The notes below the pieces were generated by a model. That model was given only the letters and a program-made list of their open reading frames with translations, did no database searches and was not told where the DNA came from. This document shows positions 876 to 23,362 of a stretch of DNA of 29,758 nt, one piece after another (within the stretch, counting starts at the first letter, position 1; each line of letters starts with the position of its first letter). The position numbers were made by a program, and so were the translations under genes. Source of the DNA: a virus; the IMG/VR virus record IMGVR_UViG_3300019888_000015, positions 1-29,758 of that record; one strand, written 5' to 3'.

Positions 876-1487
876 ATGACACTGCGTAGTGTCCCACCAG
901 GCACTGATACCCCAAGCCTGTGCGGCGGCCCCAAACGGCAGAGCCCCGGACCCTGCAGAAGGCCCGCCGGATGGGGCACCGGACACCCCGGATCCGGCCG
1001 GTGCAAACTCCACGGCGGCAGCACCCGAAACCACGAGAAACACTGGGACACCCGGCGCGCCGAAGACAAGGCCCGGCGAGCCCTCAAAGACCTCGACCCG
1101 CTCAACACCCGGCCCGAGTCCATTGAGAATCCCCTCGCGGAACTGTCTCGCCTCGCCGGCGAAGTGGTCCGCTGGAAAGACATCCTCGCAGCTCACGTGT
1201 CCGAGCTGAACAGTCTCCGCTACCGCGGCGGTGGTGAGACCGGCGATACCGAACAGATCCGCGGCGAGGTCGTCCTGTTCGAGCGTGCCCTCGACCGGTG
1301 CGAGCGGGTCCTGGTGTCCATCGCGAAACTCAATATTGACGAACGGCTGGCCCGGATCGACGAACGGCTGGCCGACATGATCGTGACGGCGCTGGAGGCC
1401 GGGCTCGACTCGATCGGCGTGGACGGTGAGCAGGCCGATCGGGCGAAGTCGGTGACCGCCCGCGAGATGCGCCGGCAGGCGTCCTAG
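876..1487 (+). CDS. Terminase small subunit (probable)
   Basis: This 203-residue protein lies directly upstream of the large terminase, with adjacent stop and start codons. Its N-terminus has a Cys/His-rich module (C..C..P.GWGTGHPGSGRCKLHGG, about residues 16-48) seen in actinophage proteins commonly annotated as small terminase. The rest is charged and largely helical, with a repeated DERLARIDERLADM stretch near residue 155 that suggests a coiled coil. In the family, TerS binds the packaging site on phage DNA and delivers it to TerL. The ATG at 876 is preceded by GGAAGGGGAG at a good distance, which decides the start. The call depends on position and the N-terminal motif. No clear helix-turn-helix was picked out. 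Confidence 0.7.
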   Translation: MTLRSVPPGTDTPSLCGGPKRQSPGPCRRPAGWGTGHPGSGRCKLHGGSTRNHEKHWDTRRAEDKARRALKDLDPLNTRPESIENPLAELSRLAGEVVRWKDILAAHVSELNSLRYRGGGETGDTEQIRGEVVLFERALDRCERVLVSIAKLNIDERLARIDERLADMIVTALEAGLDSIGVDGEQADRAKSVTAREMRRQAS

Positions 1488-4109
1488 ATGAGCGCGCTTC
1501 TCCAGGCCGCTGACCGCCTGGAAGGGCGCGACGATAGTCCGCGATCCCGGCGGGCGCGGTTGTTGCGCGAGCACCCCACCACGTTGGCCTTCGCCCAGCA
1601 TTTCGACTACACGGTGAAAACCACCCCGGCGCTGGCGGTCATCGACGCGGCCCTGGACGAGTGCGAGCAGGCCTACGCCGGGCGCCTGGTCATCACCATG
1701 CCGCCGCAGGAAGGCAAGCTGGTCGCGCACAGCACGCCCGTACCCACGCCCACCGGATGGACCACACACGGCCAGTTGCGGGTCGGGGACCTGGTGCTGC
1801 ACCCGTCCGGGCGCCCGACCCGGGTACGGAAGACCCACCCCGAAGCCCAGGCGTGGCTCAAGGTGCGCACCACCGACCACGCGGAGATCCTGGTCCATCC
1901 CCGGCACGAGTGGACCGTCTACGACCGCAGCGCCGGCCGATGGCGCACCGTCGAAACCGGCTACCTGATGACACAGGCGCTCAGCTCGGGCACGCCCGAG
2001 GAACGTGGCCATCGCTACCGGTTCCAACTTCCGTTCCGGGAAGCGCTCCAACTGCCGGACATCGACCTCCCGATCGACCCCTACACGTTGGGCGTGTGGC
2101 TCGGTGACGGCCGCAGCACGGGCGCCGCGATCTATCACCACGCCGATGACGACTACTTGCTGGCCTACCCGAACACCGCACGCTGTGTGCACGCCGGGAC
2201 CGGGGTGGTGACCGACTACTACGGCGGGGGCCTGCACGCCGACCTTCGCGCGGCCGGGCTGCTCGGCAACAAACACGTCCCGGCCCGGTACCTGCGGGCA
2301 TCCGAGAAGCAGCGACGTGCCCTGCTGGCCGGACTCGTCGACACCGATGGCCATGTCGCGACCAGTGGGCAGGTGTCGTTCGACAACGCGAACGAACAGC
2401 TCGTGCGCGACACCGCCGAACTGCTGCGAACGCTCGGCTATCGGGCGCACGTGCACCGGCCGACCGAGCCCAAGCTGTCCAGCAGTGGCATCCAAGGCAA
2501 ACAGCAGATGTGGCGGGTGACCTACACGCCACACGATGAAGGCCCCGCGCGTCTGACCCGGAAGGCAGCGGTCACGCTGGGCACCCGGCGCCGCGCCGCG
2601 ATCATGTCGATCGAAGAAGTGGCGCCGGAACCTGGACGCTGCATCACGGTGGACGCCGAGGACGGGCTGTATCTGGTGGGGGAAGCGTTCACACCTACGC
2701 ATAACACCACCACCCTGCGGTTCTTCTGCGCCCGTGCCCTCAACCGCAACCCCGACCTGCGCATCGCCTACGTCTCCTATGCCGCCCTGCTGGCCCGTGC
2801 CTCCGGCCGCTATGTGCGCGGTCTCATCGAGACGCACGGCGATGAGATGGGCCTGTCGCTCTCGCGCGACCACTCCGACGCCTCCGACTGGAGCCTGCAA
2901 GGGCATCGCGGCGGCATGGCCAGCGTCGGTATCGGCGGCGCGCTGACCGGCCGGCCGGTGGATCTGCTCATCATCGACGACCCGCTGCGCAACCGGCAGG
3001 ACGCCGACAGTGAGCTGATCTTGACCAACCAGGAGGATTGGTGGCTCTCCGTCGCGCGGACCCGGCTCGCCCCCGCCGCCTCGGTGATCATCACCCAGAC
3101 CCGCTGGAACGAACGCGACCTGGCGGGCAACCGCATCGCGGACGGCTGGAAGCAGGTCAACATCCCGGCGCTGGCCGATGGCGACACGGTGGACGCCCTA
3201 GGTCGCGAGCCCGGCACCTACCTGGAGTCCTCCCGTGCCCGCACCCCGGCCGACTGGCGGGCCGCCCGCAAGGACGTAGGCGAGCGGGTGTGGGCCGCGC
3301 TCTACCAAGGCCGCCCCGCCCCGCCGGAGGGCACCAACTTCAAGCGTGCCTGGATTGAGCGCAATCGCCTAGATCGCGCTCCCGACTTATCCCGTATTGA
3401 GGTGTTCGTCGACCCGGCCGACAACGAAGGCGGCGGCGACGAAGCCGGCATCATCGTCGGCGGCCGCGCCCAGGACTCGTACTACCTGCTGGCCGACCGC
3501 TCCGGGCACATGACCGTCAACCGCTGGTTCCGGGTCGCCCTCATCGCCGCACTCGAATTCGGCTGCACCGCCATCCGCTACGAGCAATCCCTGTCCAGCC
3601 TCGCCAAGCGGGGACGGCAGGCCTGGAAGGACCTCAAGCGGGAAGCCCTCGTGCTCAACCAGCTCCCGGCATCCGGCGGCCAGCTCACCGCGTCCGGGCT
3701 CCGTGCCGCGATCGCCCAGCTCGCCCGCGGCGACGAGGACCCCGACGAGCTCGCCGTGCTCGAACGCAACCTGCGGGAACTGTGGCCGCACCTGGCCGCC
3801 GTGCTGCGCCTGCCGGTCACCGGCATCCCGATGCGCAAGTACATCAGCAAGGGCACCAAGACGTTCCGCGCCCAGATGGTCAGCCCGCTCTACGAAGGCG
3901 ACCACGTGCACCACGTCGGCCGCTTCCCCGAGCTCGAACATCAGATGACCACCTGGCAGGAAGGACAAGACAGCCCGGACCGGATGGACGCCCTGGTGTC
4001 GTGGCTCACCGAGTCGGCGAAGGTATCCGGCGAGAACCGGATGGGCGGGCGCAACGAGGAACGCCACCAGCTTCCCCAGCGGCTCGGTGTGGGGAGGTCA
4101 CGCCGGTGA
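1488..4109 (+). CDS. Terminase large subunit, interrupted by an in-frame intein
   Basis: The product is the packaging ATPase/nuclease that pumps phage DNA into proheads. The 873-codon frame splits into an N-extein (residues 1-77), an intein (78-406) and a C-extein (407-873). The spliced protein would be 544 residues, normal for TerL. The N-extein ends in MPPQEGK, the Walker A-like P-loop, and the C-extein begins TTTLRFF, so splicing rebuilds GKT. VDLLIIDDPL after the junction is the Walker B with its acidic pair. The C-terminal part begins IEVFVDPADNEGGGDEAGIIVGG, consistent with the RNase H-like nuclease domain with Asp residues at the first strand. The gene starts at the ATG right after the TerS stop and overlaps the next gene in a GTGA. 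Confidence 0.93.
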   Translation: MSALLQAADRLEGRDDSPRSRRARLLREHPTTLAFAQHFDYTVKTTPALAVIDAALDECEQAYAGRLVITMPPQEGKLVAHSTPVPTPTGWTTHGQLRVGDLVLHPSGRPTRVRKTHPEAQAWLKVRTTDHAEILVHPRHEWTVYDRSAGRWRTVETGYLMTQALSSGTPEERGHRYRFQLPFREALQLPDIDLPIDPYTLGVWLGDGRSTGAAIYHHADDDYLLAYPNTARCVHAGTGVVTDYYGGGLHADLRAAGLLGNKHVPARYLRASEKQRRALLAGLVDTDGHVATSGQVSFDNANEQLVRDTAELLRTLGYRAHVHRPTEPKLSSSGIQGKQQMWRVTYTPHDEGPARLTRKAAVTLGTRRRAAIMSIEEVAPEPGRCITVDAEDGLYLVGEAFTPTHNTTTLRFFCARALNRNPDLRIAYVSYAALLARASGRYVRGLIETHGDEMGLSLSRDHSDASDWSLQGHRGGMASVGIGGALTGRPVDLLIIDDPLRNRQDADSELILTNQEDWWLSVARTRLAPAASVIITQTRWNERDLAGNRIADGWKQVNIPALADGDTVDALGREPGTYLESSRARTPADWRAARKDVGERVWAALYQGRPAPPEGTNFKRAWIERNRLDRAPDLSRIEVFVDPADNEGGGDEAGIIVGGRAQDSYYLLADRSGHMTVNRWFRVALIAALEFGCTAIRYEQSLSSLAKRGRQAWKDLKREALVLNQLPASGGQLTASGLRAAIAQLARGDEDPDELAVLERNLRELWPHLAAVLRLPVTGIPMRKYISKGTKTFRAQMVSPLYEGDHVHHVGRFPELEHQMTTWQEGQDSPDRMDALVSWLTESAKVSGENRMGGRNEERHQLPQRLGVGRSRR
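1719..2705 (+). mobile_element. LAGLIDADG intein in TerL Walker A, class 3 type
   Basis: This 329-residue in-frame insertion begins at LVAHSTPVPTPTGW (block A, TerL residue 78) and ends at FTPTHN, with Asn as its last residue and Thr as the +1 residue. Position 1 is Leu, not Cys, Ser or Ala. Class 3 inteins instead use a Trp in block B, a Cys in block F and a Thr in block G: here they appear as HPRHEWTV, GRCITVDAEDGLYLV and PTHN. The middle contains LGVWLGDG and LLAGLVDTDG, the paired motifs of a LAGLIDADG homing endonuclease, so the element could be mobile between intein-free terL alleles. The boundaries are exact if the conserved P-loop is GK followed by T. Catalytic activity of the endonuclease cannot be judged from sequence alone. 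Confidence 0.92.
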
Positions 4110-10587: not shown

Positions 10588-10668
10588 TCACCAATCCAGC
10601 AGCCACGCGGCCACCGGGTACAGCACGGCGGCCAGCAGGAAGCAGAGCACCACCACCGAGCCGGTCAC
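10588..10668 (-). CDS. 26-residue single-span membrane microprotein
   Basis: The GTG start (10668-10666) overlaps the stop of the FtsK-like gene as GTGA, and the frame runs to TGA at 10588. The peptide, about MTGSVVVLCFLLAAVLYPVA followed by AWLLDW, is one hydrophobic helix. The tight coupling, the hydrophobic character and the terminator placed directly after the stop argue that it is real. By analogy with tiny proteins in plasmid spread operons, it could assist the translocase in the membrane; that is inference. Too short for standard gene finders, it would usually be missed. Confidence 0.5.
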   Translation of the reverse strand: MTGSVVVLCFLLAAVLYPVAAWLLDW

Positions 10669-12527
10669 CGAGCCGCCTCGCGCTCCACCGCACGCCAGGT
10701 GCCGTTGTCGGAGCGCGCCCGGCCGGCCATCTGATGCTTGGCCAGCCGGCGGTACACCGTCGCCCGGGAGATGCCCAGCAGCGTGGCCAGGTCTTCCGCG
10801 CGAGCCGGGCCTTCGTTGATCAGGTAGTCCAGCACGTCGTCGGGCTGGTCCCGGTCGTCCCGCGGTACCGGCACATCGATGATCACGCCCGTGGTACCGC
10901 ACAGCGCGGCCCACGCGGTTGGTTCCAGGGCCTTGTGCAGTACCGCTGCCTTCGCCGCGTGAGCTCGGCGCTCGCGGTGCGAGACCCACCAGCCCTTGCT
11001 GACCACCGGGGTCTGGTGTTCGTCGTCGCGCAGCAGGAACTGGCCTTCCCGCAGGCTGGTACTGCGCCAGCCTTGGTTCTCCAGCGAGCCCCACAGGTTG
11101 CGGGACTGATCCGCCGAGAGCGACAGGCCCAAGATGGTCCGCAGTTGGGCCTGCATCTCCTTGCTGCCCCAGTCCACCTTGGTACCGTTCTGGCTGGCGA
11201 AGATGCACCACACACCGGCCTTGCGACCCCGCTTCGCGATCCTGCCCAGCATGGTCAGGATGTGCTTGAAGTCGCCGCGGGCCTGGTCGATCAGGTCCGG
11301 AAACTCGTCGATCACCAGGAACAGCCACGGGTGCTCGGAGGTGGGCTCGAAACTGTCCTCGGCGTCCTCGCTGTCCGCCGCACTGACGCCGAGCTGGCGT
11401 TCCCGGTCCTCAATGGTGGCCAGCACCCGCTCCAACACCACGTAGGCGGATGCCACGTCGGAGGCCAGCGGCAGCGCCAGGCAGCGCTTCCACACCCCCA
11501 GCGTCGCCTCGCCGGCCATGTCGATGCCCACCACCACGGCGTCGGTGGCCGCGACCAGCCAGGTCATTAGGTTGTGCAGCATGCCCGACTTGCCGGAGCC
11601 GTTGGCCCCGACGAGCTGGGTGTGCCAGATCTTCATGGACAGCTCCACCGCCTGGGAGGTGAGACCCAGCGAGAGACGTTTGTTCATGCCGGCCAGGGAG
11701 ATGGTGCCCGGTTCGGGTAGCGGGTGGGTGAGCTTGCCTTTCCACGGGTCCTTCGGCAGGAACGTCAACCACACCCGGCGGGCCTTGCTCTCGTCGGCGG
11801 TGGGGAATACGGCACCCGGGCGCAGGTTGTAGAAGCTGGCCAGGTTGTTGGCCAGCCGGGGGATGATGTCCGGTGTGACCGACTCGTGCAGCTCGATCAG
11901 CAACCGGGCCACCCCGTTGCGGCCGCCCTCGGCGCGCAGCACTTTGGATCCGACCAGCAGGGTGAGCATCGGGGGACAGCGGTCCTTGTCGCGGATGCGG
12001 GTCCACTTGCGCGCGTACTTGTCGGCCCGGCCGGCGATGCGGATGCGGCGGTGGAACCACCAGATCCCGCCGAACAGGCCCACCCCTATCTGCCAGCCCA
12101 GTGCGGTACCGCTGCTGGGTCCCAGTGCGATGCGCACGGCCAGCCAGGTCCCGACACAGGCGCACAGGGACCCGAAGTAGATGCGCTCCACGGGCCGGTC
12201 CATCACGCCGACCTTCCCGGTGTCCAGGGTGTCCGGTACCACCGCCATCGCGATCCGGGCGGCCCGGTCCCCGATGCGCGGACCCAGTACCGCCAGGGTC
12301 ACGCCCAGGACCGGTACCACCAGGACCGGCGGCCACCATGGGTCCGGTACCAGCCAGCGCCACAGGACCGCGAACAGCCACAGGCCCACCCCGGCCCACA
12401 ACGGTGCCAAGGCTCGGCGCCAGCGGAACGCGAGCCGCCGGACCACCTTGCCGAGCTTGCCCAGACCCTTGGCCAGCAGCAGACCCAGGGCGATGTCGAT
12501 GATCTCGTGCTGCTTACCCCTGCCCAT
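10665..12527 (-). CDS. FtsK/SpoIIIE-like DNA translocase (Tra-type)
   Basis: This 620-residue ATPase is predicted to move double-stranded DNA through a membrane pore. The N-terminus has about four membrane spans (residues 40-60, 65-83, 115-135, 142-158). The motor follows: Walker A GANGSGKS at 307-314 and Walker B LFLVIDEF at 402-409, with QARGDFKHILTMLGRIAKRGRKAG and ASQNGTKVDWG as typical FtsK-like motor segments. The C-terminus (about 565-615) is a winged helix-turn-helix, LATLLGISRATVYRRLAKH, in the place of the FtsK gamma domain. GAAGGAGG precedes the ATG, which overlaps the DUF2637 gene. In actinomycetes such proteins drive conjugal transfer of plasmids and integrative elements. Some actinophages also carry them. 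Its role in this element is not shown by sequence. Confidence 0.9.
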   Translation of the reverse strand: MGRGKQHEIIDIALGLLLAKGLGKLGKVVRRLAFRWRRALAPLWAGVGLWLFAVLWRWLVPDPWWPPVLVVPVLGVTLAVLGPRIGDRAARIAMAVVPDTLDTGKVGVMDRPVERIYFGSLCACVGTWLAVRIALGPSSGTALGWQIGVGLFGGIWWFHRRIRIAGRADKYARKWTRIRDKDRCPPMLTLLVGSKVLRAEGGRNGVARLLIELHESVTPDIIPRLANNLASFYNLRPGAVFPTADESKARRVWLTFLPKDPWKGKLTHPLPEPGTISLAGMNKRLSLGLTSQAVELSMKIWHTQLVGANGSGKSGMLHNLMTWLVAATDAVVVGIDMAGEATLGVWKRCLALPLASDVASAYVVLERVLATIEDRERQLGVSAADSEDAEDSFEPTSEHPWLFLVIDEFPDLIDQARGDFKHILTMLGRIAKRGRKAGVWCIFASQNGTKVDWGSKEMQAQLRTILGLSLSADQSRNLWGSLENQGWRSTSLREGQFLLRDDEHQTPVVSKGWWVSHRERRAHAAKAAVLHKALEPTAWAALCGTTGVIIDVPVPRDDRDQPDDVLDYLINEGPARAEDLATLLGISRATVYRRLAKHQMAGRARSDNGTWRAVEREAAR

Positions 12528-13314
12528 CGCGAGCCTCCTTCATGATCCGCAGGGCGCGCGTGGAGCCCACCCCGTAGGTGTCCATCAGCCGGCGCTTGGT
12601 GATCTGGTCGACCGTCTCGCCCAGGTCCGCGATGATCTCGGCGTCCGTGCGGCCCGCCCGTTTGGTCCCGGCCGGGCGTGGTGCCCGCTTCGGCGGGGTG
12701 CGGCGCAGCGGCGAGCTCACCTTCGGCGCCTTCACCGGCGCGAAGACCTGGGTGCGCTCGGCGTCTAGGTCGGGCCGTACCTTCGGCGGCTCCGGCCGGT
12801 AGGCGGGAATGATCTGGGTGCGCTCGCTGGCGGTCTCCGGCGGCGCGAACGGCCAGCCGGTGCTGGGTGCGACCGGTGTCTTTCGGCCCTGCCCGTTGTT
12901 CTCCGGCGCCGATACCGTCTCCGGCACGCGGTCCCGTTCATCGGGGGGCGGGATCGCGCCGTGCTTGTGCAGCACGCCGAGCAGGCAGGCCAGCATGAAC
13001 GGCGGTAGCGCGCCCAGGACCGCCGCCAACCAGCCGTTCGAACCGTGGTCCCAGCCGTTGGCCAGCAGCGAGCACAGGATGGCGAACAGGGCCAGCCACG
13101 CGGCGGCCTTCCATGCCGGCGAGCGCCGAATCCACACGTCCATGCCGAACGCGGCCACCGCGTCCAGGCACAGCGGGTAGAGCCAGGACAGCCAGCCGAA
13201 GCCGTTGACGTAGGCCAGGTGCTGCACGCTGGAGAAGCTGATGACGGCGGTACCGCCGATGGTGAGGGCCGCGAAGAACCGCAGGCGGGTCCTCGACCAG
13301 TTCCGGGTCTTCAC
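12514..13314 (-). CDS. DUF2637 membrane protein (Spd-like)
   Basis: This 266-residue protein starts at a GTG overlapping the upstream stop (GTGA); a longer frame to 13476 exists but would overlap the upstream gene almost wholly. Residues about 10-120 match DUF2637: TRLRFFAALTIGGTAVISF, HLAYVNGFGWLSWLYPLCLD, AVAAFGMDVWIRRS and two further spans. A charged, Pro-rich linker carries two similar pieces, SERTQIIPA and AERTQVFAP. The C-terminus (RTDAEIIADLGETVDQITKR, then TYGVGSTRALRIMKEA) looks like a DNA-binding helix-turn-helix. DUF2637 proteins accompany FtsK-like transfer proteins in conjugative elements of actinomycetes and are linked to plasmid spread. The product probably anchors DNA or the translocase at the membrane, by inference. 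Confidence 0.88.
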   Translation of the reverse strand: MKTRNWSRTRLRFFAALTIGGTAVISFSSVQHLAYVNGFGWLSWLYPLCLDAVAAFGMDVWIRRSPAWKAAAWLALFAILCSLLANGWDHGSNGWLAAVLGALPPFMLACLLGVLHKHGAIPPPDERDRVPETVSAPENNGQGRKTPVAPSTGWPFAPPETASERTQIIPAYRPEPPKVRPDLDAERTQVFAPVKAPKVSSPLRRTPPKRAPRPAGTKRAGRTDAEIIADLGETVDQITKRRLMDTYGVGSTRALRIMKEARDGQG

Positions 13315-13544
13315 GGTCGCGGGTCCTCTCGGTGATAGGTGGTCTCGCGAGGCTCCACGGGTCCGTATTGCTCGTGCCAGGACCGCCCGAAGCTGGAGTA
13401 CCAGGTACCGCCACCATGCAGGCCACGGGCCGCGAAGGACAGCGCCCACAACGCGACGAGACCGGCGCAGTACCACCAGGCCCCGAAGGCGGCGAGTACC
13501 ACGCCGGCCACGATCACGGCCGGTACCACTCTCGTTCGCTTCAT
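13311..13544 (-). CDS. Small membrane protein, first gene of the leftward operon, leaderless
   Basis: This 77-residue protein begins MKRTRVVPAVIVAGVVLAAF and has two adjacent hydrophobic spans (about residues 7-22 and 24-40), followed by a hydrophilic tail rich in Gly, Trp, Arg and Pro. The ATG (13544) is six bases from TACTAT, a good -10 reading leftward, so translation should be leaderless. Its stop overlaps the DUF2637 start. Position and topology suggest a small partner of the Spd-like protein, but it has no recognised family. Confidence 0.72.
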   Translation of the reverse strand: MKRTRVVPAVIVAGVVLAAFGAWWYCAGLVALWALSFAARGLHGGGTWYSSFGRSWHEQYGPVEPRETTYHREDPRP

Positions 13545-17649: not shown

Positions 17650-20214
17650 GTGGCGCTCCGTAAACCGAAGCCCGACCATCCCCGCGTCATCTCCCAGTCG
17701 GCCCTGACCGCCTCCGGCACCCTGGTCAACCTGAAGGACCCGAGCCTCACCCAGCGCCTGGCCGCGGCCAAGAGCCCATGGCAGAGCATGGCCTGGGACT
17801 ACGTGGAGCAAATCGGCGAACTGGGCAAGGCCTTCCGGGTCATCGCCAACGTCGTGAGCAAGGTCCAGTTCGTCGCTGCCGAGATCAACGAGGACGACGA
17901 CGAACCGATCCTGTTGACCTCCGAGCAGTGCACCCTGTCCGAGCAGGTGAAAAAAGCCGCCCGGGACGCGCTGGCGCCGCTGCCGTTCGACAACGGGTTC
18001 GCCTTCCAGGGCACCATCAGCCAGTGCTTCGGCGTCGGCGGGGAATGCTGGCTGTGGGGCCGCAGCAACAAGGACGGCAGCGGCGGCGAAGAGTGGCAGG
18101 CCCTCTCGACCGACGAGGTCCAGGTGGTGTCCTCCGGCGGCCTGGGCGTGATCACCACCCCCGGCCTGCCTCCCGAGCCGATCGACACCGACACCGACAC
18201 CCTCATCCGTCTGTGGGTGCCCAATGCGCGATGGAAGCAGCTCGCCACCTCCCCGATGCGCTCGATGCTCGACACCTGCGAGGACGTGATCCTGGTTGGC
18301 CGGGAGCTGCGGGCTGCCGCCCGGTCCCGGATCATGCGCAACGGCGTGGTGCTGGTGTCCACCGGGATGACCATCGCCCCGCAGTCCCGCGGGGAGGACG
18401 GGGACCCCGACAACGAGGACGACTTTCAGGACGAGTTCAACACGGCGATGACCGCGCCGATCATGAACGAGGGCCACCCCGGCATGGTGGTGCCACTGGT
18501 CCTCCAGGGTGACCCGGAGGACCTGAAGGTCTTCCGGCACGTCACCTTCCAGCGGGAGGACAGCCCGACGCTGATCGGCAAGCAGGAGGCCGGGCTGGGT
18601 CGGCTCGCGGACGGCCTGGACATGCCCTCGGACATGCTCAAGGGTGTGGCCGGCGTCAACCACTGGACCGGCTGGTTGCTGGACAGCCAGAACTTCAAAA
18701 ACCACATGGAGCCCGGCGTCCGGCTCATCGCGGACAGCCTCACCGACGCCTACCTGCGCCGCACCATGGTCAAGTTCGGCGGCGTCACGCCGGAGGAAGC
18801 CAAAAAGGTGCGCGTCTGGTACGACGCCAGCAACGTCACCGAGACCGCCAATCGCGCCCAGGACGCCAAGGACGCCTACGACCGCGGCCTGATCTCCAGC
18901 GACAAGGCCCGCACCGACCTGGGCTACAACGACAACGACAAGCCCAGCGAAGAGGACCTGCGCATCCTGTTCGCCCTCAAGAGCGCCGCCGACCCGACCA
19001 CCATGTCGCAGCTCTTGCAGATGATCGTGGGCACCAAGTTCATGCCCAACATCCGCGAGACCATCACCGTGCCGGAACGGCCCAACGGCACCCCGCTCAA
19101 CGGCCCGGACTCCGGCCAGCCGGCGGCGCCCGGTCAGGTCCCGAACGTGAAGATCCCCACCACCATCCCGAAGGGTGTCGCCGCCTCCGCCGGGCGCGAC
19201 GGGTACCGGGTGGTCACCAACGACGCCCTGGCCGACCTGGACAACGCGCTGCTGGACAAGCTCACCGTCGCCGCCGACATGGCGATCCTGCGGGCCATGG
19301 AGAAGGCGGGCGCGCGGGTGCGCTCGGCGGCGCAACACAGCGACTGGGCGGCCAGGCTGCGCAACGTCGACCCGGAGAACATCTGCCCGATGCTGGGTCG
19401 CGACGAGATCATGGACTTGGGCCTGTCGGAGGAACTGCTCATCGGCCGCGCCTTCACCGCGCTGGCCGGACGGTTCACCGCCTGGTCGACGGCCACCGTC
19501 AAGGCCGCGGTGAAGACCGCCGCGAAACTGTTCGGCCTTCCGCTCACGACCCAGGCGAACCTGACCCGCGTCATGCTGTCCCGCCTTCCTGCGGCCTGGA
19601 GTCTGTTGCAGGACCGCCTCGAGACTCGAGTCCTGGACAAGCTCTACGGCCGTGCGGGCGACGAGTTGCGCGGCGAGGTGCCAGAGTCCATCGTGACGCC
19701 GGGCGATCTGCGGGACGCCCTCGCGCATATCGGCGGCAGCGAGCCGGGCACGGGCGATGGCATCGGACTCGGCAAGGACGTGACGGCGGCGATCCGCGCG
19801 GTGGCCGGACCCGAGTTCGGCACGATGTGGTCTTACGGCACCGAGCCGCGCAACACCTTCGAGCCGCACGCCCAGCTCGACGACCACCGGTTCAATTCGG
19901 CCACCGACGAACGGCTGGCCACCGGGCCGGACTACGCCTGGTGTGGCCCCTACTTCCATCCGGGCGACCACCGGGGGTGCCGGTGCCATATGACCAGCGC
20001 CTGGCTGTTCCCGGAGAACGCCCGCACCATGCCGGATGACGTGCGGCAGTTGATGGCGTCCACGGTGGGCACCCAGACCCAGGCGATGGCGCAGATCCGG
20101 GCGCTCGCGGAGATGGACGACGCGGCGGGCCGGGCCGGCACCACGGCGCAGCGCGAGCGTGACGAGCGGGACCGCATCGTCCGGCTGCAAGCCGAGTGGC
20201 TGGAGGCAGCGTGA
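17650..20214 (+). CDS. Portal protein fused to a MuF-like head-morphogenesis domain
   Basis: This 854-residue protein starts at GTG 17650, preceded by AGGAGGG. The first 490 or so residues are an actinophage portal: QSMAWDYVEQIGELGKAFRVIAN, VGGECWLWGRS, FQREDSPTLIGKQEAGLGRL and VNHWTGWLLDSQNFKNHMEP (each a piece of a longer conserved stretch). The portal forms the dodecameric ring at the capsid vertex and docks the terminase. A Gly/Pro linker follows, then a helical region and a C-terminal MuF-like module with FGTMWSYGTEPRNTFEPHAQ and WCGPYFHPGDHRGCRCHMTS near residues 718-780. MuF proteins are minor head components. Fusion of portal and MuF in one chain is unusual, though fused forms are known in actinophages. 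Confidence 0.88.
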   Translation: MALRKPKPDHPRVISQSALTASGTLVNLKDPSLTQRLAAAKSPWQSMAWDYVEQIGELGKAFRVIANVVSKVQFVAAEINEDDDEPILLTSEQCTLSEQVKKAARDALAPLPFDNGFAFQGTISQCFGVGGECWLWGRSNKDGSGGEEWQALSTDEVQVVSSGGLGVITTPGLPPEPIDTDTDTLIRLWVPNARWKQLATSPMRSMLDTCEDVILVGRELRAAARSRIMRNGVVLVSTGMTIAPQSRGEDGDPDNEDDFQDEFNTAMTAPIMNEGHPGMVVPLVLQGDPEDLKVFRHVTFQREDSPTLIGKQEAGLGRLADGLDMPSDMLKGVAGVNHWTGWLLDSQNFKNHMEPGVRLIADSLTDAYLRRTMVKFGGVTPEEAKKVRVWYDASNVTETANRAQDAKDAYDRGLISSDKARTDLGYNDNDKPSEEDLRILFALKSAADPTTMSQLLQMIVGTKFMPNIRETITVPERPNGTPLNGPDSGQPAAPGQVPNVKIPTTIPKGVAASAGRDGYRVVTNDALADLDNALLDKLTVAADMAILRAMEKAGARVRSAAQHSDWAARLRNVDPENICPMLGRDEIMDLGLSEELLIGRAFTALAGRFTAWSTATVKAAVKTAAKLFGLPLTTQANLTRVMLSRLPAAWSLLQDRLETRVLDKLYGRAGDELRGEVPESIVTPGDLRDALAHIGGSEPGTGDGIGLGKDVTAAIRAVAGPEFGTMWSYGTEPRNTFEPHAQLDDHRFNSATDERLATGPDYAWCGPYFHPGDHRGCRCHMTSAWLFPENARTMPDDVRQLMASTVGTQTQAMAQIRALAEMDDAAGRAGTTAQRERDERDRIVRLQAEWLEAA

Positions 20215-20598: not shown

Positions 20599-20874
20599 AT
20601 GACCGAGGCCTACGAGGGACGACACCCCGGAACCCGGCACATCATGCAGTACTTCACCTACGGGCATCTGGCCAAGTCGGAGATGCAGGCCATCTCGGCG
20701 GCATGCGGCCAGCTCGCGGAGCAGATGGTGGCGACCCTGCCGGACAGCCCCGAGCTCACCGAAGGCCTGCGCAAACTGCTGGAAGCCAAGGACTGCCTGG
20801 TCCGGGCCATGGTAACCGCCATCAAGACCGAGCAGCCGCTACCGAAGAACACCTGGGACGGCAACGATGGCTGA
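20599..20874 (+). CDS. Acb2/Tad1 hairpin-like small protein (candidate anti-CBASS sponge)
   Basis: This 91-residue protein is placed at ATG 20599, with GGAAGGTGG upstream; an in-frame GTG at 20587 would overlap that ribosome binding site. It follows a pattern common in actinophages: RHPGTRHIMQYFTYGHLAKS, then ISAACGQLAEQMVATLPDSP and TEGLRKLLEAKDCLVRAMVT, two helices joined by a Pro-containing turn. The family is related, in my recollection, to the Acb2/Tad1 hairpin, in which hexamers sequester cyclic di- and trinucleotides and so block CBASS (and some Thoeris) signalling. This gives a counter-defence hypothesis, not proof. It overlaps the polyprotein start by 8 bp. Family membership moderate, activity unknown. 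Confidence 0.62.
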   Translation: MTEAYEGRHPGTRHIMQYFTYGHLAKSEMQAISAACGQLAEQMVATLPDSPELTEGLRKLLEAKDCLVRAMVTAIKTEQPLPKNTWDGNDG

Positions 20875-23362
20875 CGACTTCTCGACCTCCGGCATGATCG
20901 CGCTCATTCCGGACGACCCCAAGACGCTCGCCGTCGACGGCGGCCTGCCGCCGGAGGAGCTGCACTGCACCCTGGCCTTCCTTGGTGACGGCGTCGACCA
21001 GTGGACCGAGGAACGGACCGAAGCCCTTCAGGGTGCCGTGGCGCGGCTGGCCACCAACTACGGGCCGATCGAAGCCCGGATCTTCGCCCAGTCCATCTGG
21101 AACGCGGACGGCGGCACCAACCCGCAGGGCGAGCCCATGAAGCCGTGCGTGGTCTATCAGATCGACGGTCGCACCCTCGGGCTGTCCGGCCTGCAATCGG
21201 AGGCCTACGCCCTGTCCGAGCAGATCATGGGCGCCGACTACCCCGAGCAACACTCGCCCTACCTGCCGCACATTGCTGCGGCCTACGACTCGACAGACGT
21301 GGGCGCGCTCAACGCCAACCCCGGACCCGTGACTCTCGGACGTATCCGGCTGGCCTTGGGTAACGATGTCCAGGACTTCCCGCTCACCGGCTCCACCCCG
21401 GTCGAGCTGGAGGCACCCAGCCGCTACACCGAGGGAAGGACCGCCGAGATGGCCAGCAAAACCGCGACGGCGAGCCCCGCCAGCACCGACGCCCAGCCCG
21501 AGCTCGGCAAGCCGGATGAGAACGGACAGATCCCGGTGCACTTCCCGGTGCTGGTGGTGGAAGGCCTGCGCACCTCGGACGGCCGGCTCATCGCGCCCGG
21601 CGCGCTCGAACACCGGGCGCTGCCGATGTCCATCCTCGCCCAGACGAAGAACCCGGGGGCGGATGGCGGCCATGCCGGCGCGGAGGTGATCGGTCACCTG
21701 ACCACCATGGAGCGGGTGCCGGGTCCCGAGGTGGTCAGCAAAAAGACCGGCTCGCCGTTCCCCGAGGGCACGTTCGTGTGGCGCGGCGACGGCCTGATCG
21801 ACCCGGATACCGCCGGTGGCAAGAGCGCCAAGGACGGTCACCTGCGCGGCAACTCGGTGGACCTGTCCGAGGTGGATTATGAAGAGGACTTCACCGAGGC
21901 CGACGACCGCCAGATCAACGTCACCGCCGGCCGGATCGCCGCCACCACCCTGTGCCCCATTCCGGCGTTCGAGGACGCCTACGTGGAGATGGGCGATGAG
22001 CACGACGGCGCCCCGCTGCCGGAGCCGGACGCCGTCGTGGCGTCGGCGTTCTCCGCGGAGGAGCTGGGCGATCACTGCCTCCTGTGCGACCTGGGCGAGC
22101 AGGAGACCGAGGGCTGGACGCTGACCGCCGATGGCGAGTTCTCCCCGACCGCGGCCAAGCGCAAGCGCGCGTTCAAAAAGGGCCTGGCCATCAAGGGCAG
22201 CCAGGACGACGGCGGCGACGCGTCCTACCCGATCGAGAACCAGGCCGACCTAGACAAGGCCGCCAACATGGTGGGGCTCGGCAAGGACCCCAACGGCAAG
22301 ATCAAGGCGCACATCAAGGCGGCGGCGAAGAAACTGGGTCTCAAGCTGCCGCAGAGCCTGACCGCCAGCGCCGCGGCGAGCCTGCCGCCGCTGGGCTACT
22401 TCACCGATCCCGGTTTCACCGAGCCCACCCCGCTCACCATCGACGGCGACCGCATCACCGGGCACATCGCCACCTGGCGGTCCTGCCACATCGGCGTGCA
22501 GGGGCGCTGCGTCCGGCCGCCGCGCTCGCCTTCCGGGTACGCGCACTACTGCAACAAGGCCAAGCGCGTGGTGGACAGCGACGGCATCGAACGCACCATC
22601 GGCATCGGCAACCTCACCATGAACACCAGCCACGCCGAGCTGACGGCCGGTGCCTCCGGTGCCCTGCGCCACTACGACCACACCGGGCTCGCGGTGGCCG
22701 ACGTGAACGCCGGAGAGGACGCGCACGGCATCTGGATTGCGGGCACCGTACGGCCCGGCCTGTCGCAGGAGGAGCGTGTCGCCCTGCTCGCCTCCGCGCC
22801 GTCCGGCGACTGGCGCAACGTCGACGGCCACGGCCTGGACCTGGTGGCCGTGCTTCAGGTCAACACGCCCGGCTACCCGGTGCCCCGTGCCCGGATTGCC
22901 TCCGGTGCCCCCGAGGCTCTGGTGGCGGCCGGTGCGGTGCGCTCGGCGGCGCAGCTCGCACCGCCGGACCCCAACGACGAGCTGGCGGACAAGATCGCCG
23001 CGAAGCTTGCCGACCAGTGGGGCCTGCCGTCCAGGACGGCCACCGAAGCCAACGAGATCCAGCGCGACATGCTGCTGGCCGACATGGGGGTGGTGCACCC
23101 TTTTGACCTGGGCGGCGAGCTCGCCGCGTCTAGGTTGCCCTACGGTCCCGGCTCAAAACTGTGGAAGTACTGGACCTCGGGCGAAGGGCTGGCCCGCTAC
23201 ATCGACAAGGCGCATCCCTGGACGGCGCTGCGCGACGCTCTGCTCTCCGAAAACGTCCCCGCCGAGATGGCGGACGGCTTGACCACCAACATCATGCTGG
23301 CCACCCCCGAAGGCCGCGCCGCGTTCAAGGCACACCACCCCGGGGGAAGATCGAAGGGGTAA
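20867..23362 (+). CDS. Head polyprotein: 2H-phosphoesterase-like domain, prohead protease and other domains
   Basis: This 831-residue chain contains several units. Residues 1-185 look like a 2H phosphoesterase: ELHCTLAFLGD (His 33) and YLPHIAAAY (His 135), where the second motif has Ala in place of the usual Thr/Ser. Residues about 220-375 resemble the HK97-type prohead protease: VHFPVLVVEGL, HLRGNSVDLSEV, and NVTAGRIAATTLCPIPAFED followed by AYVEM. Residues about 425-498 hold a small helical repeat domain (SYPIENQADLDKA, HIKAAAKKLGLKLP). About 505-700 is a conserved actinophage module (HIATWRSCHIGVQGRC, HYDHTGLAVADVNAGED). The end (KLWKYWTSGEGLARYIDKAH, then PWTALRDALL) is another actinophage block. 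ATG 21449 (residue 195), with GGGAAGGA eight bases upstream, could start a protease form lacking the 2H domain. Confidence 0.8.
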   Translation: MADDFSTSGMIALIPDDPKTLAVDGGLPPEELHCTLAFLGDGVDQWTEERTEALQGAVARLATNYGPIEARIFAQSIWNADGGTNPQGEPMKPCVVYQIDGRTLGLSGLQSEAYALSEQIMGADYPEQHSPYLPHIAAAYDSTDVGALNANPGPVTLGRIRLALGNDVQDFPLTGSTPVELEAPSRYTEGRTAEMASKTATASPASTDAQPELGKPDENGQIPVHFPVLVVEGLRTSDGRLIAPGALEHRALPMSILAQTKNPGADGGHAGAEVIGHLTTMERVPGPEVVSKKTGSPFPEGTFVWRGDGLIDPDTAGGKSAKDGHLRGNSVDLSEVDYEEDFTEADDRQINVTAGRIAATTLCPIPAFEDAYVEMGDEHDGAPLPEPDAVVASAFSAEELGDHCLLCDLGEQETEGWTLTADGEFSPTAAKRKRAFKKGLAIKGSQDDGGDASYPIENQADLDKAANMVGLGKDPNGKIKAHIKAAAKKLGLKLPQSLTASAAASLPPLGYFTDPGFTEPTPLTIDGDRITGHIATWRSCHIGVQGRCVRPPRSPSGYAHYCNKAKRVVDSDGIERTIGIGNLTMNTSHAELTAGASGALRHYDHTGLAVADVNAGEDAHGIWIAGTVRPGLSQEERVALLASAPSGDWRNVDGHGLDLVAVLQVNTPGYPVPRARIASGAPEALVAAGAVRSAAQLAPPDPNDELADKIAAKLADQWGLPSRTATEANEIQRDMLLADMGVVHPFDLGGELAASRLPYGPGSKLWKYWTSGEGLARYIDKAHPWTALRDALLSENVPAEMADGLTTNIMLATPEGRAAFKAHHPGGRSKG

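Follow-up and report, generated by a model that had tools for sequence, protein, structure and literature searches.

The large terminase subunit (TerL) of an uncultured phage very probably harbors a mobile class 3 intein in its P-loop, with an embedded LAGLIDADG homing endonuclease and with a splicing and homing path that can be predicted from its parts. The gene lies in a viral record of 29,758 bases, called the window here. A first-pass annotation had placed the intein between the Lys and Thr of the terminase Walker A motif, and its coordinates are exact: the insert is one open frame of 329 aa without a stop, and removing it from the precursor gives the 544-residue TerL that had been proposed as the product (873 - 329 = 544). 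The motifs that it had listed are also all present, with HEWTV starting at intein residue 63, GRCITVD at 306 and PTHN at 326, as is the starting Leu. The features are collected in Table 1.

Anatomy and class of the intein

Around the insert, the frame matches terminase large subunits, with PHROG 38 at E 1e-70. Pfam finds Terminase_6N (from residue 407) and Terminase_6C, and Terminase_1 was not found in the same search. An NCBIfam search gave weak matches only, far under its cut-offs. Around the insert the protein reads MPPQEGK, then L...HN, then TTTLRFF. The ORF directly ahead of terL is a candidate for the small subunit (TerS) by position; it has no Pfam family above its cut-off, and in related phages a TerS is annotated ahead of terL.

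Table 1. Features of the terL region of the window
Feature	Position	Strand	Basis
terL precursor ORF, 873 aa (544 aa after predicted splicing)	1488..4109	+	ORF list
N-extein, 77 aa, last residue the Walker A Lys (PPQEGK)	1488..1718	+	alignment with intein-free TerLs
Class 3 intein, 329 aa, TerL residues 78-406	1719..2705	+	stop-free insert, relatives, alignment, model
Splicing domain, N-terminal part, residues ~1-88 (approximate border)	1719..1982	+	phmmer, model
Block B His63-Glu64-Trp65 (catalytic His and class 3 triplet Trp)	1905..1913	+	invariant in 18/18 aligned inteins
Linker and LAGLIDADG homing endonuclease, residues ~89-290 (approximate borders)	1983..2588	+	Pfam, PI-SceI fold match
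First LAGLIDADG-type motif LGVWLGDG, Asp130	2088..2111	+	positions, alignment
Second LAGLIDADG motif LAGLVDTDG, Asp210	2325..2351	+	Pfam LAGLIDADG_3
Block F position 4 Cys308, predicted first nucleophile	2640..2642	+	invariant in 18/18; aligns with class 3 DnaB Cys
Block G Thr327-His328-Asn329	2697..2705	+	THN also terminal in class 3 DnaB inteins (PDB alignments)
Thr+1, the P-loop Thr, predicted second nucleophile	2706..2708	+	intein-free alleles
C-extein, 467 aa: remaining ATPase domain and nuclease domain	2706..4106	+	Pfam, PHROG
Upstream ORF, candidate terminase small subunit	876..1487	+	position only; ends directly before terL

Read from the sequence, the intein has Leu at residue 1, with no Cys, Ser or Thr nucleophile there, its start being set by intein-free alleles. 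The class 3 triplet is complete (Trp65, Cys308, and Thr327, aligned with 6rix and 6bs8), the end is His328-Asn329, and the residue at +1, which may be Ser or Thr, is Thr. Together, Leu1, Trp65, Cys308, Thr327, His328, Asn329 and Thr+1 are what the class 3 definition as printed in PMC5222942 asks for. A phmmer search finds class 3 DnaB inteins (E 5.5e-13), and intein residues 3-67 match such inteins by phmmer; the only three distinct PDB sequences at E < 0.001 are all DnaB inteins termed class 3 by their entries or papers. Across 18 aligned inteins, His63, Trp65, Cys308, and Asn329 do not vary, which is partly a product of how the loci were chosen, since the scan patterns included the Trp and Cys peptides. 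The exceptions are at block G, where Thr is replaced by Ser in L004, and at the penultimate His, replaced by Ala (L004) or Arg (L022). A scan of loci gave 27 matches, several of them near-copies of one another, with the Cys in 27/27, the Trp in 26/26 of those covering it, and the Thr in 25/27 (Ser in L004 and L012).

It is most improbable that the insert belongs to a different intein class, whether class 2 or class 1 with a displaced start, and has only a chance resemblance to class 3. Class 2 inteins likewise have no residue-1 nucleophile (PMC5222942), but the window intein has the full class 3 triplet, and its Cys308 is conserved in 18/18 relatives, even if this is partly due to how they were chosen. 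A shifted start is ruled out by the intein-free alleles, and the first Cys of the intein is residue 156. Two inteins of class 1 in related TerLs (L049 and L094) have a Cys start, and their block B His is not followed by Trp. That the insert looks like an intein by chance alone is excluded by the phmmer E value and by a full-length relative at 72% identity in another contig. With the triplet present, the start fixed and no early Cys, assignment to class 1 or to class 2 was abandoned. The class 3 assignment of the first-pass annotation is upheld by the sequence, the fold model, and the intein-free alleles.

Some departures from this arrangement occur among the loci collected. L004 (4998-6032) and L012 carry class 3-like inteins ending VSAN/T, with Ser for the triplet Thr and Ala for the penultimate His. 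In L049, a 925-aa TerL ORF of a Sphaerisporangium album contig, the P-loop is intein-free and a class 1-like intein lies C-terminally, with a Cys start and an HN/C end, preceding CASFPNGRHDDQVD, which is probably in the nuclease domain; the mycobacteriophage TerL inteins covered by PMC5050341 are reported only in the ATPase domain. In L094 (Gordonia phage Angelicage, 514-2901) a class 1-like TerL intein, with a CMTGD start and an SHN end, lies between LVM and TRWHEDD and not in the P-loop. Elsewhere in the window, an FtsK/SpoIIIE-family protein (10668-12527, minus strand) adjoins a DUF2637 protein (12517-13476, minus strand), a pairing that occurs in actinomycete conjugative elements, and two long ORFs (17650-20211 and 20867-23359, of 854 and 831 aa) have no Pfam match at E 0.01.

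The fold was modelled with AlphaFold2 from an 11-row alignment (mean pLDDT 84.6, with low confidence at residues 151-167). In Foldseek PI-SceI ranks first for this model. In a second structure comparison the highest-scoring PI-SceI rows have Z about 25 across 305-316 residues, and class 3 DnaB inteins give Z about 20 and 1.4-1.8 A across 123-127 residues. Within the insert Pfam finds LAGLIDADG_3 (35.2 bits, cut-off 22.5) and also Hom_end, and both LAGLIDADG motifs are intact with their acidic residues, Asp130 and Asp210. As modelled, the intein is a class 3-type splicing domain (Hedgehog/intein fold) with an inserted LAGLIDADG endonuclease, and the Pfam matches, the two motifs, and the PI-SceI match bear out the embedded endonuclease proposed earlier. 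L015 (1300-1737) encodes a 146-residue class 3 mini-intein, a splicing domain without endonuclease, at the same Lys/Ser site of a TerL-like protein.

The insertion site and movement between phages

The comparison with intein-free terL alleles, which had been proposed as the way to fix the boundary, places it between Lys and Thr of Walker A and, with the sequence, identifies the +1 Thr with the P-loop Thr. Among 60 terminase loci in genome contigs gathered with a C-extein profile, the site is uninterrupted in 57, the residue after Lys being Ser in 56 and Thr in 1. Of the other three, L077 (a Bacteroidales MAG) is interrupted by a class 3 intein at this very position, and L045 and L081, from which the P-loop part is absent, were not judged. 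The TerL of Rhodococcus phage Tonitrus matches that of the window in two pieces, the first ending at the P-loop Lys and the second starting shortly beyond, and its own site is continuous (PQEGK-STRV). By sequence comparison, the sharpest boundary case is an exact 981-bp insertion, but among relatives: Gordonia phage Ali17 has the intein after GGCAAG and Gordonia phage Leonard has none, the flanks being identical at 239/240 bases upstream and 240/240 downstream.

Mobility had earlier been only inferred; it now has comparative support from an extein tree, AU tests, and identical inteins in Gordonia phages. The closest intein, in L003, is the one that is 72% identical over its full length. The C-extein of L003 is 38.9% identical to that of the window and is outranked by 16 of the 60 C-exteins without an intein (among the best 45 of 69 extein identities). 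A quick tree of 69 exteins was built, with SH-aLRT support only, in which L015, L057, L072, L088, and L089 are long rows of unsure placement; LittleE, whose terminase was judged not safely alignable, and L045 and L081 were excluded. In this tree the window shares a starred branch (98) with Tonitrus, which is intein-free, a Dietzia locus, and the mycobacteriophages HSavage and KayaCho, L003 joins an intein-free Streptomyces locus (100, starred), and the starred branches require that the intein state changed five times or more. In the intein tree, the window and L003 inteins pair (95/91). AU tests reject an extein tree uniting the window with L003 (p-AU 5.3e-10) and one uniting these two with two Gordonia phages (p-AU 1.9e-71).

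The strongest evidence for homing, judged from sequence comparisons, comes from these Gordonia phage relatives, whose inteins are 59% identical to that of the window across the whole length, and not from the window's own phage. ViaConlectus (Zitchvirus) and Ali17 (Leonardvirus) have inteins identical at 981/981 bases, while their N-exteins are 71.9% and their C-exteins 75.6% identical. Between ViaConlectus and Zipp (both Zitchvirus), 119/981 intein bases and 100/1395 C-extein bases differ. These identities, with the two trees and the AU tests, argue that the intein moved separately from its host gene. Closer to the window, a query with the C-extein among viral contigs matched a single contig, which is near-identical. 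The near-identical contig L002 differs from the window at 8/1905 terL bases and at 0 in the intein; the chance that the differences all miss the intein is about 0.003, assuming an even spread of changes.

It is unlikely that the intein is a degenerate relic, splicing poorly or with a dead endonuclease, that has lost its mobility. A related class 3 intein locus is reported as a pseudogene (PMC3196547). In the window, however, all of the named catalytic residues and both LAGLIDADG Asp residues are retained, the TerL frame is open from end to end, and both domains have low dN/dS. The linker and endonuclease region has a Nei-Gojobori dN/dS of 0.107 between the window and L003 (a rough value, dS being 1.55, near saturation) and 0.073 between ViaConlectus and Zipp, in neither case above the splicing parts of the same pair. 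Between the window and ViaConlectus the endonuclease region gives 0.339 and the N-terminal part of the splicing domain 0.358; the C-terminal part was saturated. From these sequence comparisons, the endonuclease motifs are under purifying selection. A phage whose intein could no longer splice would presumably lose its terminase.

Predicted splicing and homing

The splicing path can be drawn from studied class 3 inteins (PMC5222942, PMC7664689). Cys308 would attack the Lys77-Leu78 bond of TerL (Leu78 being intein residue 1), with His63 and Trp65 shaping the active site at the N junction. The N-extein would then be transferred from Cys308 onto Thr+1, cyclization of Asn329, aided by His328, would follow, and ligation of the exteins as PPQEGK-TTT would restore Walker A. 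In homing, the endonuclease would cut intein-free terL at the Lys/Thr codon pair and recombination would copy the intein in. Since the insert is within the P-loop, precursor TerL should not act as an ATPase; PMC6195587 notes the case of RadA, whose ATPase function is disrupted by an intein in the P-loop. Full dependence of packaging on splicing, as held by the first-pass annotation, would then be expected, provided that no second terminase is encoded beyond the window, which is possibly a fragment.

Another conceivable reason for keeping the intein, which we consider quite unlikely, is post-translational control over the timing of packaging, for example by a redox switch at Cys308. The parallel would be DnaBi1, a class 3 intein in the P-loop of mycobacterial DnaB, which H2O2 inhibits via a disulfide on the catalytic Cys; PMC6195587 calls its Cys48 important, and we take that residue to be the disulfide partner. 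However, the stretch of the window intein aligned with Cys48 is without any Cys, the only Cys other than 308 is residue 156, in a low-confidence region of the model, and the patchy distribution and transfer history suit selfish spread. There is similarly only a slim chance that the intein belongs to an actively and recently moving class 3 lineage which hops among deeply diverged actinophage terminases by recognition of the conserved P-loop codons and which, through its place at that catalytic spot, gates packaging, precursor TerL being unable to bind ATP before splicing and the phage using the delay for timing.

Comparison with known systems

The literature already describes class 3 inteins, Lys/Thr insertion in the P-loop of mycobacteriophage TerL, and mycobacterial DnaB with a class 3 intein in its P-loop. 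The present case contributes a full-length example with its endonuclease, and with Thr at +1, in an uncultured phage whose TerL is of the Terminase_6 type, together with a record of transfer; no new principle is involved. The Gordonia relatives make a clean natural record of homing, with identical intein DNA in two genera and an intein-free near-twin for one of them. Since Gordonia terrae is the listed host of the Gordonia phages with TerL inteins, homing into a packaging ATPase could be observed in mixed infections.

The carriers among these phages are Zipp, APunk, ViaConlectus, Sampson, Verity, Delrey21, DoctorFroggo, and Ali17. Their inteins share with that of the window the class 3 residues, a full endonuclease, and the GK-S/T site of a related TerL, but they have Ser instead of Thr at +1, and their hosts are of another TerL lineage in the tree, with C-exteins about 36% identical (among the best 45 of 69). 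In the entries of Zipp (NC_053248.1), Verity (NC_053249.1), and Ali17 (NC_053245.1), the intein-bearing terminases are annotated as 'exonuclease', perhaps owing to the insert. Among titles and abstract openings, a scope that takes in few subscription papers, we recognized no treatment of the terminase inteins of the Gordonia phages or of Bacteroides phage B124-14.

In mycobacteriophages TerL is the commonest intein host; five representative terminase inteins splice, and two cut intein-free alleles (PMC5050341). The TerL1-a inteins described there likewise separate the Lys of the P-loop from its Thr, but in a Terminase_1-type protein. Filing the window intein under TerL1-a was rejected for that difference in host family (Terminase_6N/6C in the window), the insertion site being the same. 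TerL inteins are described for LittleE and Omega, with Courthouse intein-free (PMC3706429); that of LittleE (L027) has the class 3 residues and is 38% identical to the window intein. The TerL inteins of B124-14 and of Porphyromonas phage phage005b share the class 3 residues and the insertion site in TerL (there Lys/Ser), but are about 39% identical and have hosts from another phylum. DnaBi1 of M. smegmatis (6bs8) and MchDnaB1 of M. chimaera (6rix, 6riy) share the class and the splicing-domain fold, and DnaBi1 also the P-loop location, its +1 residue being the P-loop Ser (PMC6195587). Unlike the window intein, both are mini-inteins without an endonuclease, in a bacterial helicase, and Cys48 of DnaBi1 has no counterpart in the window intein.
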